Assembly (NCBI GenBank): GCA_027449965.1
Contig: DAIDKP010000013.1
Location: 62,001 to 126,000, forward strand
Source of the DNA: Acidobacteriaceae bacterium
GTDB taxonomy: Bacteria > Acidobacteriota > Terriglobia > Terriglobales > Acidobacteriaceae
DNA: 64,000 nt
Direction: 5' to 3'
Shown: positions 14,992 to 22,456 of the stretch, in pieces
Layout: the number at the start of each line of letters is the position of its first letter
Position numbering within the stretch: the first letter of the stretch is position 1
Translations under genes and position numbers: made by a program
The notes under the pieces: generated by a model
What the model saw: the letters and a program-made list of their open reading frames with translations, nothing else
Told to the model about the DNA's origin: nothing
Database searches by the model: none

Positions 14992-16053
14992 ATGACTATG
15001 TCTTATCTGAATCGCATTGCCACGGCCGTACCCGAGCATGATGTGCATGATCTCTTTGTGGTCTTTGCAGAGGAGATGCTTGCAGACCCAAGGCTGCGCG
15101 CGGTGTTTCGCCGGATGGCGAGCCGCGCGGAAATCGATCATCGATATTCATTTCTCAATACGCAGAAAGGCCGGGGATCTTTTTCGTCACAGGATGCGAC
15201 GGAACTGTATCGGCTGGGCAGCTTTCCGAATACTTCGCGGCGCATGGAGTTGTTTGAGCAGTACGCTCCGGTGCTGATGCGAAAGGCAGTCGACAACCTG
15301 GCGCTCAACGAGCAGGAGCGCGCTGGAATTACGCATGTGCTGGTGACCTGCTGCACGGGTCTGTATGCGCCGGGTCTGGATTTTGAGATTGTCGACCACC
15401 TTGGACTTTCACCGAGCGTGGAGCGCACGATGATTGGATTTATGGGATGCTATGCCGCGATCAATGCGCTGAAGCTGGCGCGGCATATTGTGCGTTCCGA
15501 TCCGAAAGCCAGCGTACTGATGGTCAACCTGGAACTGTGCACGCTGCACTTTCAGGAGACGCAGGATCTGGAACAGGTGCTTTCCTTCCTGGTCTTTGCC
15601 GATGGCGCGGCAGCAAGCCTGATTACCGCTCGCGAGCAGGGTCTGGCGCTGGACAGCTTTCGAGCCGTGATGGTGCCGGGTACCAGAGAATTGATTACGT
15701 GGAAGATCCGTGGGCTGGGGTTTGACATGCTGCTCTCCGGGCAAGTGCCGACGGAGTTGAGCCGAGCCTTGCAAGAGGACGAACTGATGCGTGAGCGAGA
15801 CAGGATCGATCTGTGGGCGGTGCATCCGGGCGGGCGGTCGATTCTGGATGCGGTCGAGCGAGGGCTGGAACTGCCGGATAGCGCACTGACGGCATCGCGG
15901 GAGGTGCTGTCGCGCTTTGGCAATATGTCGTCGGCGACGGTAATGTTTGTGCTGCAACGGATGATGCAGCAGGCGAGGCCGGGCCAGAGCGGGTGTGCGA
16001 TGTCGTTTGGCCCCGGACTGACAGCGGAGACGATGCGCTTCCATGTGGTCTAG
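14992..16053 (+). CDS. Type III polyketide synthase (chalcone/stilbene synthase family)
   Basis: Active-site Cys in MIGFMGCYAAINALKLA, His in WAVHPGGRSILDAVE, Asn in SRFGNMSSATVMFVL; 353 aa. Confidence 0.92.
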   Translation: MTMSYLNRIATAVPEHDVHDLFVVFAEEMLADPRLRAVFRRMASRAEIDHRYSFLNTQKGRGSFSSQDATELYRLGSFPNTSRRMELFEQYAPVLMRKAVDNLALNEQERAGITHVLVTCCTGLYAPGLDFEIVDHLGLSPSVERTMIGFMGCYAAINALKLARHIVRSDPKASVLMVNLELCTLHFQETQDLEQVLSFLVFADGAAASLITAREQGLALDSFRAVMVPGTRELITWKIRGLGFDMLLSGQVPTELSRALQEDELMRERDRIDLWAVHPGGRSILDAVERGLELPDSALTASREVLSRFGNMSSATVMFVLQRMMQQARPGQSGCAMSFGPGLTAETMRFHVV

Positions 16054-16768
16054 CATAGAGATCGATTTCAGTCAGCGGGTTTCTCCGCGCGAGTTGCCTG
16101 AGCTGATGGATGGCGAGTGCAGCTATGAGGATTTTCGTGAGTGCCTGCGCAGCCTGGAAGAGATCAACCGATGGCTGTGGGGATATCGACCAACGTTGGC
16201 CTGGCTGAATCGGCTGCCACTGGATAGGAACGGGCCGGTGCATATTCTCGATGTGGGTTGTGGTGGTGGTGATCTGCTGCGGAAGATTGCCGACTGGGCG
16301 CGGAAACGCGATGTCGCTGTGAAACTGACGGGCATTGACCTGAATCCCTATGCAGCGAAAGCGGCAGCGGAGGCGACCCCGAAGGCTTTAGGAATCGAGT
16401 GGGTGACGGGGAATGCGCTGGAGTTTTGCCCGAAGACGCCTGTGGATATTGTCGTCAGCTCGCTGATGGCGCATCATCTGGAGGAGGAGCAGATCATAGC
16501 GCTGCTCCGGTGGATGGAGGTGACGGCGCGTGTGGGTTGGTTTATCAATGACCTGGAGCGCTCCGAGCGGAACTGCCGCCTCTTTCAGTGGGTGGAAAAG
16601 ATGGCAGGCTGGCATCGGTTTGTGCGTCACGATGGCCCCGTGTCATTTCGACGCGCTTTTGTGGATGAGGATTGGGTGCGACTGCTGACTGCGGCGGAAG
16701 TGCCGCGAATCGCAACATCGGTGGAGCACTGGCGTCCGGGAAGATTGTGTGTGGGGCGCTGGAAGTGA
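16043..16768 (+). CDS. Class I SAM-dependent methyltransferase
   Basis: VHILDVGCGGGDLLRKIADWA motif I, LTGIDLNPYAA; overlaps the PKS stop by 11 bp. Confidence 0.87.
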   Translation: MWSSIEIDFSQRVSPRELPELMDGECSYEDFRECLRSLEEINRWLWGYRPTLAWLNRLPLDRNGPVHILDVGCGGGDLLRKIADWARKRDVAVKLTGIDLNPYAAKAAAEATPKALGIEWVTGNALEFCPKTPVDIVVSSLMAHHLEEEQIIALLRWMEVTARVGWFINDLERSERNCRLFQWVEKMAGWHRFVRHDGPVSFRRAFVDEDWVRLLTAAEVPRIATSVEHWRPGRLCVGRWK

Positions 16769-16868
16769 GAGCTGCAATTTTGACCGAGATGCATCGACAG
16801 GCAAAGTTTGTTGTTCCCGTTCGAGCACGGATGCAACGAATATCGTCTAACTACCGAGGAAACCGATA

Positions 16869-17504
16869 ATGCCGACTTCCACAATGCTCGCGTCCAAATC
16901 TGCGGGTTCCAGATTCAAGATCATGCTGTGGGCGGGCATTGGCCTCACGACGCTCTTTGTCTTCATCACTTCAGAAGTCCTCCTTGTCACCGACTACCCG
17001 ATGTATCACGCTTATCGCTTGCAGGTGATCGCTGATCGTCATCTGCTGATCCCGCATACGCTCGCCGGATTATTTGCCCTTTTGATCGGCCCTGTCAATT
17101 TCTCCTCGCGGATTCGCCAGCGTCATCTCACGCTTCATCGCATACTTGGTCGCGTCTATGTGGTTTCTGTTTTTGTCGGTTCGTTGACCGGTATCGCTCT
17201 CGCCTGGGGACGTCCGGGGCTTCCGGGGACATCGATGCAGGCTGCGGCGTGGATGGTCTGCACAGTTGCTGCTTTTATCACTGCGCGCAATCGTCACATC
17301 GCTGTGCACCAACAGTGGATGGCTCGCTCCTACGCAGTCACGTTTACTTTTGTCTCCAGCCGCGTATTCAATCTGGTGCCCGCTTACTGGAGCCATCTTG
17401 GCGATGTGCTGTCCGCAGTTGGCGTGATTGCCTTCACTCTCGCATCCCTGCTGGTAGTTGACCTGGGCTTCAACTGGCACGAACTCACAACGCGTCGCAA
17501 CTGA
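16869..17504 (+). CDS. DUF2306-like integral membrane protein
   Basis: Multiple TM segments; HLLIPHTLAGLFALLIGPVNFSSRIRQRHLTLHRILGRVYV and HQQWMARSYAVTF resemble DUF2306. Confidence 0.75.
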   Translation: MPTSTMLASKSAGSRFKIMLWAGIGLTTLFVFITSEVLLVTDYPMYHAYRLQVIADRHLLIPHTLAGLFALLIGPVNFSSRIRQRHLTLHRILGRVYVVSVFVGSLTGIALAWGRPGLPGTSMQAAAWMVCTVAAFITARNRHIAVHQQWMARSYAVTFTFVSSRVFNLVPAYWSHLGDVLSAVGVIAFTLASLLVVDLGFNWHELTTRRN

Positions 17505-17693
17505 TTTTTGATTCGTCGATGCAGAGCGGGCAAAGTCGCGCACGATCAATCGGCACGCAACCACCATAGAAAGACCAGCACTCAGATGACGATTCATTCA
17601 GGATGATCTTCCAATTGGCTTTTTGAGCGTCTATTACAAATAAGAATTCGCACGATTCGCTGATTGTGCACACAATGGATTAGGAGCAATATC

Positions 17694-18815
17694 TTGCACG
17701 ACGAAGTTCTGATGATTGGTGGTGGCGTGGCAGGCTGCGCAGCTTCCATTGCCCTGGCTCGTAAGGGGCGCAGAGTCACGATGATTGAACGCGAACCAAC
17801 GCCCCGCCATAAAGTTTGTGGTGAGTTTTTGAGCGGCGAGGCCCTGGAGGATCTGCATCTGCTTGGCATTGATCCCGCGTCGCTGGGAGCCGTGCCGATC
17901 GATTACGTTCGACTCGCCACGACAAGGCGCGCTGCAACGGCCCCGCTCCCGTTTCCTGCAAAGTCGCTTACGCGCAAGACTCTCGACACCGCTCTGATCG
18001 CCGAGGCGATAGCAGCGGGAGTCCGAGTTAAGTGTGGCCGCAGTGTCGAATCGCTGAGCCGGACAGCGGATAATCAATGGCAGGCAACGCTCGATGACGG
18101 CACTACGTACAAGGCCCCAACGGCATTTCTAGCGACAGGCAAACACGATCTGCGAGGCCACCGACGTCCCAAAGATCGCCATCAATGGGTTGGCTTCAAG
18201 ATGTACTTCCGACTGTCTGCCGCTCAAACCGCTGATCTGGCGGACGCTTCAGAGCTAACGCTTTATGCTGGTGGCTATGGCGGAATCCAGCCGGTGGAAG
18301 ACGGCATGGCGAATTTTTGTTGTGTAGTGCAACGGCGGTATTTCGCGCGCGCGGGTCTTCGGTGGGAGAGTCTTCTGGCAAAGATGAAACAGGACTGCCC
18401 TCACCTCGCAATGCGGCTGGAAGGTGCCGAGCCGCTGCTCGATAAGCCCATTACCATCGCGCATATTCCCTACGGCTACATCCGCCGCGAAACCGAAGAA
18501 GGACTCTACTGCATCGGGGATCAGGCTGCCGTAATTCCCTCCTTTACGGGGGATGGCATCTCGATCGCGCTGCACACGGCTCGCCGTGCTGCGGCAGCCT
18601 ATCTTGCCGGAGAATCGGCACCAGTATTTCAGGCAAAGCTGCGCACCGCCATGTTGCCGCAGATGCGCCTGGCGGAACTGGCTGCCAATGGGATGAACAA
18701 TGCCATCGCGCGCGCTGTGCTGCCGTTCTGCCTGCGGATATGGCCCGGAGCCATGCGCGTAACGGCAAAACTCACGCGAGTCACACAGCCCGCAGCGCAG
18801 GCATACGCGGGCTGA
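17694..18815 (+). CDS. FAD-dependent oxidoreductase (geranylgeranyl reductase/aromatic hydroxylase-like)
   Basis: EVLMIGGGVAGCAASIALARKGRRVTMIE Rossmann FAD motif; YCIGDQAAVIPSFTGDGISIALHTAR; AGGAG before a TTG start at 17694. Confidence 0.87.
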   Translation: MHDEVLMIGGGVAGCAASIALARKGRRVTMIEREPTPRHKVCGEFLSGEALEDLHLLGIDPASLGAVPIDYVRLATTRRAATAPLPFPAKSLTRKTLDTALIAEAIAAGVRVKCGRSVESLSRTADNQWQATLDDGTTYKAPTAFLATGKHDLRGHRRPKDRHQWVGFKMYFRLSAAQTADLADASELTLYAGGYGGIQPVEDGMANFCCVVQRRYFARAGLRWESLLAKMKQDCPHLAMRLEGAEPLLDKPITIAHIPYGYIRRETEEGLYCIGDQAAVIPSFTGDGISIALHTARRAAAAYLAGESAPVFQAKLRTAMLPQMRLAELAANGMNNAIARAVLPFCLRIWPGAMRVTAKLTRVTQPAAQAYAG

Positions 18816-18883
18816 AATAAGCCTGCCAGCAACTCGGTCAAAGATTCATTTTGGGTAGTCAACATCTTCCATCTGGAGACGCA

Positions 18884-19447
18884 ATGAAATCGTTCGCTGT
18901 ATTCGCGCTCGCCGCCATCCTCGGCCCAGTCGCCCTCGCTCAATCTCAAACTTTTGCGCTCAATCCCAATACAAGTGAAGTCAGGATGACTTTGAATACC
19001 ACGCACGAGGTTGTTCATGGAGTCTTTCATATTCAATCAGGATCGATTCTTTTTGACCGCAGCAACTCGAAGATATCTGGCTCCGTGATCGTGCTGGCTG
19101 GAAGCGGAAAGACCGGCAATGAACTTCGCGATAAGAAGATGGATAAGGAGATTCTCAAGGTAGAACGATATACTTCGATCTCTTTTGCTCCGCAAAGCTA
19201 TACCGGCACGATTGCGCCTGAAGGTGATTCAACCCTTCAGGTGAGTGGAGTATTCACGCTGCTTGGCAATCCTCATAACCTGACGATACCGATGCAGATT
19301 CACCTCGATGGATCTAAGGCAACGGTCAGCGCGCACTTCATTGTTCCCTACGTCGAGTGGGGCCTCAAAAACCCGAGCTTCATGTTCTGGAAGGCTGAGA
19401 ACGATGTTGCGATCGATCTGAATCTTACAGGTCAAATCTCCAACTAA
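18884..19447 (+). CDS. YceI family protein, exported
   Basis: Signal peptide MKSFAVFALAAILGPVALAQ; YceI-like lipocalin fold pattern (FALNPNTSEVRMTLNTTHEVVHGVFHIQSGSILFD). Confidence 0.85.
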   Translation: MKSFAVFALAAILGPVALAQSQTFALNPNTSEVRMTLNTTHEVVHGVFHIQSGSILFDRSNSKISGSVIVLAGSGKTGNELRDKKMDKEILKVERYTSISFAPQSYTGTIAPEGDSTLQVSGVFTLLGNPHNLTIPMQIHLDGSKATVSAHFIVPYVEWGLKNPSFMFWKAENDVAIDLNLTGQISN

Positions 19448-19702
19448 CGCGTGCTCCCACAACCTAGCGGAAGCGAGGTGCGACTCGTTTCAACTCCTTG
19501 ATCCAAGAGGGGCTAAGGGGTTCTGCCGAAATCGCAAAGTAGTTTAAAAAGAGGAAGGCTCGCAGGGCGCTACGATTCTGTGGCACCAGAAGCAGGCGTG
19601 CGCGGGTACGAACTGTGTCTGGAAGTCGAAGCGCGAAGCCGTTGCAGCACTTTGTGCTCTTCGAGTACGATGATCCCGACTTGCAGAGTCCGGGAAATAG
19701 GC

Positions 19703-22456
19703 ATGAACCCCAAACTTGTTGCGCTCTTTCTGTTTTCGTTCTTCGCCGGTCACGCCTGTGCGTTTTCCTCGCCCTGCTCCATTCCTCAGCCCAGGCTGCG
19801 CGTCAACCGTGCTGACATCTTTTCCGATCAGCAGGAGCAGTGGCTCGGCGATGCGCAGGCCGATATGGTTGAGCCGCGGTACATTCTGTTGCCAGCCGAC
19901 CAGAGTCAGTATCTGGACGAACTCGGGCAGCGCCTGCTCCGGCAGCTCCCGCCCACGCCCATCCACTACACTTTCCGCATCTTTGAGTCGCCGTATCTAC
20001 GGGCTTTTTCACTGGCTGGCGGTCATGTTTACATCAGCCGCAAGCTGATTATGGACGCGCAAAGCGAAGACGAACTGGCTGCCATGCTGGCGCAGGAGAT
20101 CGGCAGAATCTATATTCATCACGCTGCCTCTGCGGTAACGCGCTTCATGGAAAGCACGATGGATGTGAAGCATCTGAGCGACCGCGCAGATGTGGAAAAC
20201 AAATTGGAGCGCATGTTGAATATGCCCTCCGATGAGTATGCGTATCTCTCGTTCGATGAGCAGCGCGATGACGATGTGCTGGCAGACCGGGTTGGCCTGT
20301 ACGCGATGATTCAGGCTCGCTTCAATCCCCGGGTCTTCCCGGAGTTTCTGGATCGCATCAACGACAATGGCGGTTACACCGGCAATTTCCTCACCGACTT
20401 GTTTGAGCTGACACCCATCATCAGCGAGCGGGTGCGCATGGCGAAGAAAGTTGTCGCTTCGCTGCCGAAGGGATGCAACCCGGATTACCATTCTGACGCG
20501 CAGGCTTTTCAGCGCTTTCAGCAGGCCATTGGAGAACAGCGAATCGATCCCTTTGTTGCGCCGACGCCGGGCCTCGAATCCGTCGCTTTGCAGCCGATTG
20601 CGCCGGTGCTGAAGCGTGTGATGCTTAGCCCGAACGGTAAATATGCGCTGGCCCAGGATGGCTTTCAGATTCATGTGCTTTCGACCAATCCTGCCAAGGT
20701 TTTGTTTTCCATCGACGCTTTTCAGGCCGAGAAAGCTCAGTTCACGCCAGACTCGCAGAGCGTCGTCTTCCACTACAACGATATGCACGTGGAAAAGTGG
20801 AAGATCGCTACCGGCCAGCCCACCAGCGTTCAGGACTTTGTGGATTACGCCGGATGCTTACAGACCAGCTTGTCCCCGGACGGCACGGCGATGGCCTGTG
20901 TCAGCCCTTACTTTACTCTGACCGGGAAGACGGTCTGGTTGAAGCTGGCCGACATCGTCAACGGGAAGATGCTTTACCAGAAGCACGATTTCTTTGATAA
21001 CTTCTCGAATACTCCCATTCAGGCCACCATGCGTTGGTCTCGGGATGGAAGATATTTCGTCGCTACCTCTGGATTGGCTGCGATGAGCTATGACCTGACG
21101 AAAAAGCAAACTGTGCATCTGGATGGCGTGCTTGGTGATCTACGTCAGCAGCGTTTTGTTTTTGTTGGTTCGAAGATGCTCTCCACCTGTGACTGGTCAT
21201 TTATAAACGGAGCCAGGAATCAGCTGTTTCAGATGTGTTACACAACCTTTCCCGATGGGCAGAAGCTGAGCCAATTCCAGTTACCTTACGGTGGGCTTCG
21301 CTCAGTGGCAGACAGCAATCATCTGCTCTTTGGTCCGCTTGCGCACTCCGCCGCCGCGCTCATCGATCCAACCAGCGAAAAGATTCAGGTTGAATTTCCT
21401 GACAGTGCAGTCGATCTGCTTGGCACAAAGGTTGCGTATGAGCTGCCTTCGGGCGGGGTTGGCATCGGTTCTCTGCACGGAGAGATTGGGAAGGTTGCCC
21501 TGCCGCAGAATCCGCTGACTGCGGTGGAAACGAGTGTCTTCAGTCCGGACGGACATTACGTGACGGTCTCCAATCCAGCGCGCGCTGCTGTGTGGGACAG
21601 CATCAGCGGAGCACGGCTTGCAGTTCGGCAACCGTTTTACACCGCGACCATCGACAACAACGGAGATCTCCATGCCAACACCACGGACCACGAGATCACC
21701 CGCACCTCAAATCCGTTTTTGTATCCCTTGCAGGTTGGAGATGTCGCTCTTTCCTTCGTGCCAACCGATGTCTATCAGGATTATGGCCAGTTCGTGCGCC
21801 TGGATGTGCAGGATGTGAAAACTCACGCGAAACTCTGGTCGAAGACCTTTATTCAGGGGGCGCCGCAGTTTGTTGCCGTCGATGCAGACTACTCGCTGCT
21901 CGTTACCAGTTTCAAGGGCTGGAGCGGCAACGGCAAATTGACCTACACCTCGGATCAGCGAAAGATGGCCCACATCTATCCATTTGGGACCGTCGTTGCT
22001 GTGATCTCCAATCGCACGGGCAAGATTGAGCATCAGCTTTTCAGTCCACAGCTCACAGCGCCAGACTGCCTGTGCGAATATCACTCCGCGGATCTCTTCG
22101 GAACCATGCTGGCGGTCTATGGCATCCATAACGAAACCACGGTCTATCAAGTGGCGACAGGTGAGCGCCTGTTTGCATTCTTTGGGCGCGCGCTGGCCGG
22201 TGACAATTCGCTGAGCCTTTTGGCTTCGACTGACCGGCTTCAGCAATTGAATATTTATGACGCGGCGAGTGGTCGTCGCGTGGCCCACTATATGCTCGAT
22301 CAGGCTGTCATCGCAGCTCATTTCGTTCCTGATCGACAGGAACTGCTTGCCTTGACCGCCTCGCAACATCTCTATCGCATCCATCTGGCCAGCCTGCTTT
22401 CACGCCAGCCCACGGAGAGCGCAGGGAAGGAAAGATCAGCATCGCATCCGCGCTGA
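19703..22456 (+). CDS. Exported M48-like (degenerate) protein with C-terminal WD40-like beta-propeller
   Basis: M48-like context SEDELAAMLAQEIGRIYIHHAA but HExxH replaced by QEIGR; C-terminal repeats such as LSPNGKYALAQDG, FSPDGHYVTVSN, SLSPDGTAMACVS. Confidence 0.75.
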   Translation: MNPKLVALFLFSFFAGHACAFSSPCSIPQPRLRVNRADIFSDQQEQWLGDAQADMVEPRYILLPADQSQYLDELGQRLLRQLPPTPIHYTFRIFESPYLRAFSLAGGHVYISRKLIMDAQSEDELAAMLAQEIGRIYIHHAASAVTRFMESTMDVKHLSDRADVENKLERMLNMPSDEYAYLSFDEQRDDDVLADRVGLYAMIQARFNPRVFPEFLDRINDNGGYTGNFLTDLFELTPIISERVRMAKKVVASLPKGCNPDYHSDAQAFQRFQQAIGEQRIDPFVAPTPGLESVALQPIAPVLKRVMLSPNGKYALAQDGFQIHVLSTNPAKVLFSIDAFQAEKAQFTPDSQSVVFHYNDMHVEKWKIATGQPTSVQDFVDYAGCLQTSLSPDGTAMACVSPYFTLTGKTVWLKLADIVNGKMLYQKHDFFDNFSNTPIQATMRWSRDGRYFVATSGLAAMSYDLTKKQTVHLDGVLGDLRQQRFVFVGSKMLSTCDWSFINGARNQLFQMCYTTFPDGQKLSQFQLPYGGLRSVADSNHLLFGPLAHSAAALIDPTSEKIQVEFPDSAVDLLGTKVAYELPSGGVGIGSLHGEIGKVALPQNPLTAVETSVFSPDGHYVTVSNPARAAVWDSISGARLAVRQPFYTATIDNNGDLHANTTDHEITRTSNPFLYPLQVGDVALSFVPTDVYQDYGQFVRLDVQDVKTHAKLWSKTFIQGAPQFVAVDADYSLLVTSFKGWSGNGKLTYTSDQRKMAHIYPFGTVVAVISNRTGKIEHQLFSPQLTAPDCLCEYHSADLFGTMLAVYGIHNETTVYQVATGERLFAFFGRALAGDNSLSLLASTDRLQQLNIYDAASGRRVAHYMLDQAVIAAHFVPDRQELLALTASQHLYRIHLASLLSRQPTESAGKERSASHPR

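Follow-up and report, generated by a model that had tools for sequence, protein, structure and literature searches.

A type III polyketide synthase locus with an exported YceI lipocalin in Acidobacteriaceae: a candidate redox-lipid pathway

The pkqABC and srsABC gene sets of Mycobacterium and Streptomyces encode, in this order, a type III polyketide synthase (PKS), a methyltransferase (MT) and an oxidoreductase, on a plan that leads from an alkylresorcinol to a quinone. The same order occurs in the locus described here, PKS-MT-DUF2306-FAD-YceI (FAD denoting a flavin adenine dinucleotide-dependent oxidoreductase), which lies in a 64,000-nucleotide stretch (the window) of an Acidobacteriaceae genome (assembly GCA_027449965.1, contig DAIDKP010000013.1, positions 62,001 to 126,000), and a tryptophan at the position of ArsB Trp281 is also held in common (PMC9927152). 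It is by gene order and this PKS marker that the locus is likened to the alkylresorcinol-to-quinone plan, and its quinone is putative. A first-pass annotation had drawn the analogy to srsABC for PKS, MT and flavoprotein, and had named the class I MT, DUF2306 and YceI as departures from it; both statements are borne out, and the analogy extends to pkqABC and hidABC. The window differs from pkqABC and srsABC in its soluble class I MT, in a distinct FAD protein resembling geranylgeranyl (GG) reductases and halogenases, in its Gram-negative host, and in having YceI and DUF2306, the latter sitting between MT and FAD in the clade of the window, unlike the three-gene plan.

The hidABC genes and planctomycete PKS-MT-oxidoreductase operons provide the same three functions as the core of the window locus, usually in the order MT-oxidoreductase-PKS, unlike the window, and hidABC lacks both YceI and DUF2306. 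Planctomycete enzymes, when expressed, yield pentadecyl- and heptadecylresorcinols, to which a co-expressed MT adds a C-methyl group, and the operon of "S. ferox" has a gene for a lipid/isoprenoid-binding protein, a possible independent parallel to YceI (PMC10896814). A small membrane protein and an exported YceI are likewise encoded together in the LcoA-BcnA system, where a YceI lipocalin (BcnA) and a cytochrome b561 (LcoA) defend lipids against peroxyl radicals; in YceI proteins, ubiquinone-8 or octaprenylphenol occupies the barrel (PMC9113575). Compared with LcoA-BcnA, the window has a YceI of a divergent subfamily, putative ligand-making enzymes in the same locus, and a DUF2306 protein with no b561 Pfam match. 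What is new here is the lipocalin together with DUF2306; the three-enzyme core is known.

We read the locus as encoding a pathway for a polyketide redox lipid together with a dedicated carrier in the periplasm, and put the probability of this reading at roughly 55%. The probable output of the gene set is a phenol or quinone lipid with a long chain, the product most likely being a polyketide lipid of the quinol/quinone type with a periplasmic lipocalin. Respiratory polyketide quinones are reported only from actinobacteria in the literature examined, and the open literature searched holds no report of a link between YceI and type III PKS (one proteomics paper contains both terms).

Conservation and complementary loss of the gene block

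All five open reading frames (ORFs) are intact and lie on the + strand. The PKS gene (14992..16053, 353 aa) overlaps the MT gene (16043..16768, 241 aa) by 11 bp, and ORF coordinates and Pfam matches agree with the five same-strand genes and the overlap that the first-pass annotation had described. Gaps of 100 bp, 189 bp and 68 bp separate MT from DUF2306 (16869..17504, 211 aa), DUF2306 from FAD (17694..18815, 373 aa) and FAD from YceI (18884..19447, 187 aa). The genome containing the window is 3.24 Mb and 95% complete, and its PKS has its nearest named relatives in Granulicella and Edaphobacter.

Among 200 genomes of the order, a search for the window-type PKS turned up two grades of the enzyme, 78-86% and 57-69% identical. 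PKS-MT-DUF2306-FAD is kept in 20/20 close loci, with YceI next in 18/20, despite flanking genes that differ among the close loci examined, so that conservation of the block is not a matter of chance; conserved co-occurrence had been set beforehand as a test, and it was found. The 20 distant loci have a compact PKS-MT, with FAD next in 19/20, and contain neither DUF2306 nor YceI. Of 80 named loci taken from a GTDB genome scan (Alphaproteobacteria, Deltaproteobacteria, one Planctomycetota genome and others), most have PKS-MT-FAD in the same order; MT is next to PKS in every one of the 20 close loci and in the majority of those from other phyla. Because the three-gene order spans phyla and the five-gene form is confined to one fully supported clade, PKS-MT-FAD is an old module to which DUF2306 and YceI are additions of the Acidobacteriaceae.

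Nine genomes retain a DUF2306-FAD-YceI cassette without an intact close-type PKS. Their loci have decayed to different degrees: in L074 the PKS has an internal deletion and MT is intact, L072 and L073 have an intact MT and no PKS, in L071 the MT is broken, and L075-L079 have neither PKS nor MT. A distant-type PKS-MT is encoded elsewhere in 9/9 of these genomes versus 27/163 other genomes (Fisher p 3e-7, uncorrected for kinship, as are all Fisher values here; through shared ancestry, the counts of adjacency and of co-occurrence do not stand for independent events). In three genomes (G158, G177, G185) the distant PKS locus lacks FAD, and a search of each entire genome yields a single FAD, that of the cassette, and a single MT, that at the distant PKS; G088 has one FAD and two MTs and is otherwise alike. 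Reciprocal loss of this kind, leaving one complete set, would be expected if the genes serve a single pathway.

Such maintenance bears on the idea of a secreted, hierridin-like bioactive phenol, for which YceI would provide export or self-protective sequestration. The hidABC genes do produce bioactive hierridins (PMC8086630, PMC10896814), and the YceI-family protein BcnA binds antibiotics and tocopherol (PMC9113575). The conserved block, however, includes no exporter, regulator or resistance gene, and the split loci preserve the pathway across many species, as expected of a housekeeping lipid; we consider a bioactive phenol unlikely.

Other features of these loci would suit an arrangement in which FAD and YceI are a redox module of their own, acting on an unrelated host lipid (e.g. 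menaquinone) and linked to PKS only as a side effect of gene order. In most close relatives, DUF2306 and FAD are separated by a minus-strand gene (L031-L050, L160-L166) encoding an exported-looking 260-aa protein with no Pfam match; the window has a spacer without this gene (17505..17693). Because the antisense gene sits there, a single five-gene transcript is unlikely in the relatives, and one transcript is doubtful as a general proposition. FAD-YceI pairs are also found with no adjoining PKS, and for one of these seven pairs no PKS is detected anywhere in the genome. On the other side, FAD belongs to a PKS-MT-FAD operon across phyla, every one of the nine cassette genomes keeps PKS-MT, and where the distant locus has lost FAD the sole FAD is that of the cassette. 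A separate module is, in our judgment, quite unlikely. (Beside the 260-aa gene, a short relic of the PKS 5' end, reversed, is seen at L076:7249-7359 and L079:6873-6974, which suggests an inversion during PKS loss.)

The antisense gene is one of several observations that count against a polyketide redox-lipid pathway with a dedicated carrier. In other phyla the operon lacks DUF2306 and YceI, the latter giving one weak match in the 80 named loci. An A/C-type YceI is lacking in 15/64 genomes with an A-type PKS (it is found in the other 49/64, versus 9/136 without this PKS), and in 22/119 genomes with the YceI subfamily no type III PKS is detected (odds ratio of the association, 4.1, a weaker link than that of A/C-type YceI with A-type PKS). 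The A-type FAD, which is the window type, is without the DG motif seen in class A aromatic hydroxylases that depend on NAD(P)H (ATGKHDLRG versus ADGxxSxxR, the latter found in B-type FAD proteins), which makes hydroxylation uncertain. The first-pass proposal of one PKS-MT-FAD-YceI pathway is strengthened by complementary gene loss at split loci and by the PKS-FAD-YceI operons of a second PKS family (see below), and is weakened in that DUF2306 and YceI are lineage-specific, the subfamily and the PKS each occur in genomes where the other is not found, and a single transcript is doubtful.

Predicted activities of the enzymes

The PKS matches both Chal_sti_synt domains of Pfam, N and C, as a full-length type III enzyme. 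Its residues C153, H278 and N311 align with the C175-H313-N346 triad of PKS18, and this Cys-His-Asn triad, which the first-pass annotation had called intact, is preserved in at least 179/181 PKS homologs. T122, A126 and C183 match T144, A148 and C205 of PKS18 exactly, the first two of which we take to be acyl-tunnel residues. PKS18 C205 is listed as one (PMC6274091). At the position of CHS Gly256, Trp281 of ArsB leads to resorcinols and a Gly in ArsC to pyrones (PMC6274091, PMC9927152). W237 of the window PKS occupies this position (aligned with L266 of PKS18), its nine-residue spacing to M246 equals the G284-M293 spacing of ArsC, and Trp is found at the ArsB-281 position in 180/181 homologs collected. 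From these residues, the enzyme is predicted to form a long-chain alkylresorcinol by aldol closure. Identity as DpgA (3,5-dihydroxyphenylacetyl-CoA synthase) was rejected, at 109 bits versus an equivalog cut-off of 425.

Resorcinol markers in the PKS would also be expected if the product were a structural or barrier lipid, a methylated alkylresorcinol of the envelope that YceI merely ferries to the outer membrane, with no redox chemistry. Alkylresorcinols are membrane (cyst) lipids in Azotobacter (PMC4824345), and the PKS-MT-FAD operon of G. maris yielded resorcinols methylated on carbon, its FAD enzyme having no detected effect (PMC10896814). That FAD is the most persistent partner of YceI, kept when PKS and MT vanish from the locus, and that cbb3-like oxidase genes adjoin sister YceIs, argue the other way, and we regard a purely structural lipid as somewhat improbable.

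The MT is assigned to the class I S-adenosylmethionine-dependent enzymes by Pfam (Methyltransf_25/11) and NCBIfam, and the segment HDGPVS is conserved in it. The FAD gene starts with TTG behind AGGAG, and the FAD proteins of relatives begin at the same place. The first-pass description of a GG reductase-like flavoprotein stands in that FAD families of Pfam are matched and a GG-reductase-like KVCGEFLS motif is present; the match to the GG-reductase subfamily itself falls below cut-off. The AlphaFold2 model (predicted local distance difference test, pLDDT, 92) has a PHBH-like fold. Its nearest PDB relatives by both sequence and fold are FADH2-dependent halogenases, including the phenolic halogenases PltM and RadH, and hierridin C owes its chlorine to an unknown enzyme (PMC8086630), which together would fit a halogenase with a halogenated alkylresorcinol as product. 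The halogenase segment WxWxIP is nevertheless absent, being replaced across the family by GYAGLQPVE or similar, and a halogenase appears very improbable. Aromatic hydroxylases are also among the closest fold matches. Hydroxylation is favored because hierridin B bears an extra ring hydroxyl (PMC10896814), and the FAD protein is most likely a ring- or lipid-modifying flavoenzyme.

DUF2306, identified by Pfam as a membrane protein family, has H63, H90 and H147 invariant in 28 homologs. A fold search with its model (pLDDT 77) gave no significant match, the top-ranked entries being NOX-type di-heme membrane domains at E 0.13-0.47.

The lipocalin subfamily and its neighbors

The window YceI scores 65 bits to its Pfam family versus a gathering score of 23.7, and a signal peptide can be read from its sequence, in agreement with its earlier description as an exported YceI protein. 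It is related to TT1927b and to lipocalins of Campylobacter, Burkholderia and Saccharophagus. A profile built from the locus scores YceIs of the subfamily at about 215-305 bits, and ordinary YceIs of the same genomes at 20-58; a tree (in which BcnA itself is not included) splits the subfamily from canonical YceIs of the same bacteria with full support. The notion that this clade is specific to PKS loci proved too strong once 20 members were added, as many members lie outside PKS loci.

The same bacterial family has a second PKS, only about 30% identical, in a tightly packed operon of PKS, FAD and YceI (e.g. L090, L104) whose neighboring genes overlap or lie a few bases apart, and whose FAD protein is only 20-24% identical to the window type. 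Among 79 places with a non-A-type PKS, 24 have a same-strand YceI no more than 1.4 kb downstream, and no YceI is nearby in any other arrangement; by our own estimate, assuming one YceI per 5-Mb genome, chance alone would yield about 0.01. In other families of the phylum, PKS-FAD-YceI recurs in L251 and more loosely in L245, PKS is followed by YceI in L241, and a YceI-like gene lies directly upstream of PKS in L248 and L250. In 7/20 further loci YceI comes directly after a B-type FAD with no PKS adjoining, and 6/7 of these genomes encode a PKS at another site. The pair FAD-YceI, in that order, is the most persistent, since it also occurs where PKS lies elsewhere. In place of FAD-YceI, the B-type PKS at L108:5217-7588 has directly after it a gene whose protein ends in a copper type II monooxygenase C-terminal domain.

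The closest sister YceIs overlap or adjoin a gene fusing cbb3-type oxidase subunit II and cytochrome c in 6/7 loci. From both settings, quinone-type synthesis and terminal oxidases, we infer that the YceI ligand is a redox lipid. The gene beside the sister YceI in L082, L083, L084, L086, L087 and L089 (e.g. L084:6062-10440) is a fused MFS-like/FixO/cytochrome c gene with a gene for a CcoN-like membrane protein near it, an unusual cbb3-like oxidase operon ending in a lipocalin.

Downstream of YceI in the window, positions 19580-22456 encode one protein in which an M48 peptidase domain precedes a long beta-propeller-like region; in the relatives, no such gene was found to adjoin the conserved genes. 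A scan of the locus for promoter-like and terminator-like sites found them at chance frequency.

Proposed pathway and its significance

In the proposed pathway, the PKS would load a long acyl starter and extend it with malonyl units, and aldol condensation would close the chain to a 5-alkylresorcinol. The MT would methylate carbon or oxygen, and the FAD enzyme would oxidize the ring, most likely by hydroxylation, in either order. The outcome would be a methylated alkyl-quinol/quinone or methoxyphenol, comparable to the polyketide quinones and hierridins. In the periplasm, the exported YceI lipocalin would then bind the lipid, serving as a redox shuttle or as a chain-breaking antioxidant, and DUF2306 may be a membrane partner. 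More tentatively, the product could be an extracytoplasmic polyketide quinone that YceI carries between DUF2306 and either peroxidized lipids or a cbb3-like oxidase; this further step is possible, and we would not yet lean on it.

For the YceI lipocalins, a common family, the natural lipid cargo is an open question. On genome evidence from several arrangements, a distinct YceI subfamily is associated with type III PKS and FAD enzymes. This linkage, and the presence of the whole locus in a cultured strain, Granulicella rosea DSM 18704 (L160), make the cargo of a YceI protein and the maker of that cargo directly testable. Were the shuttle interpretation true, type III PKS, FAD enzyme and lipocalin would constitute a redox-shuttle system hitherto unrecognized in Gram-negative Acidobacteria.

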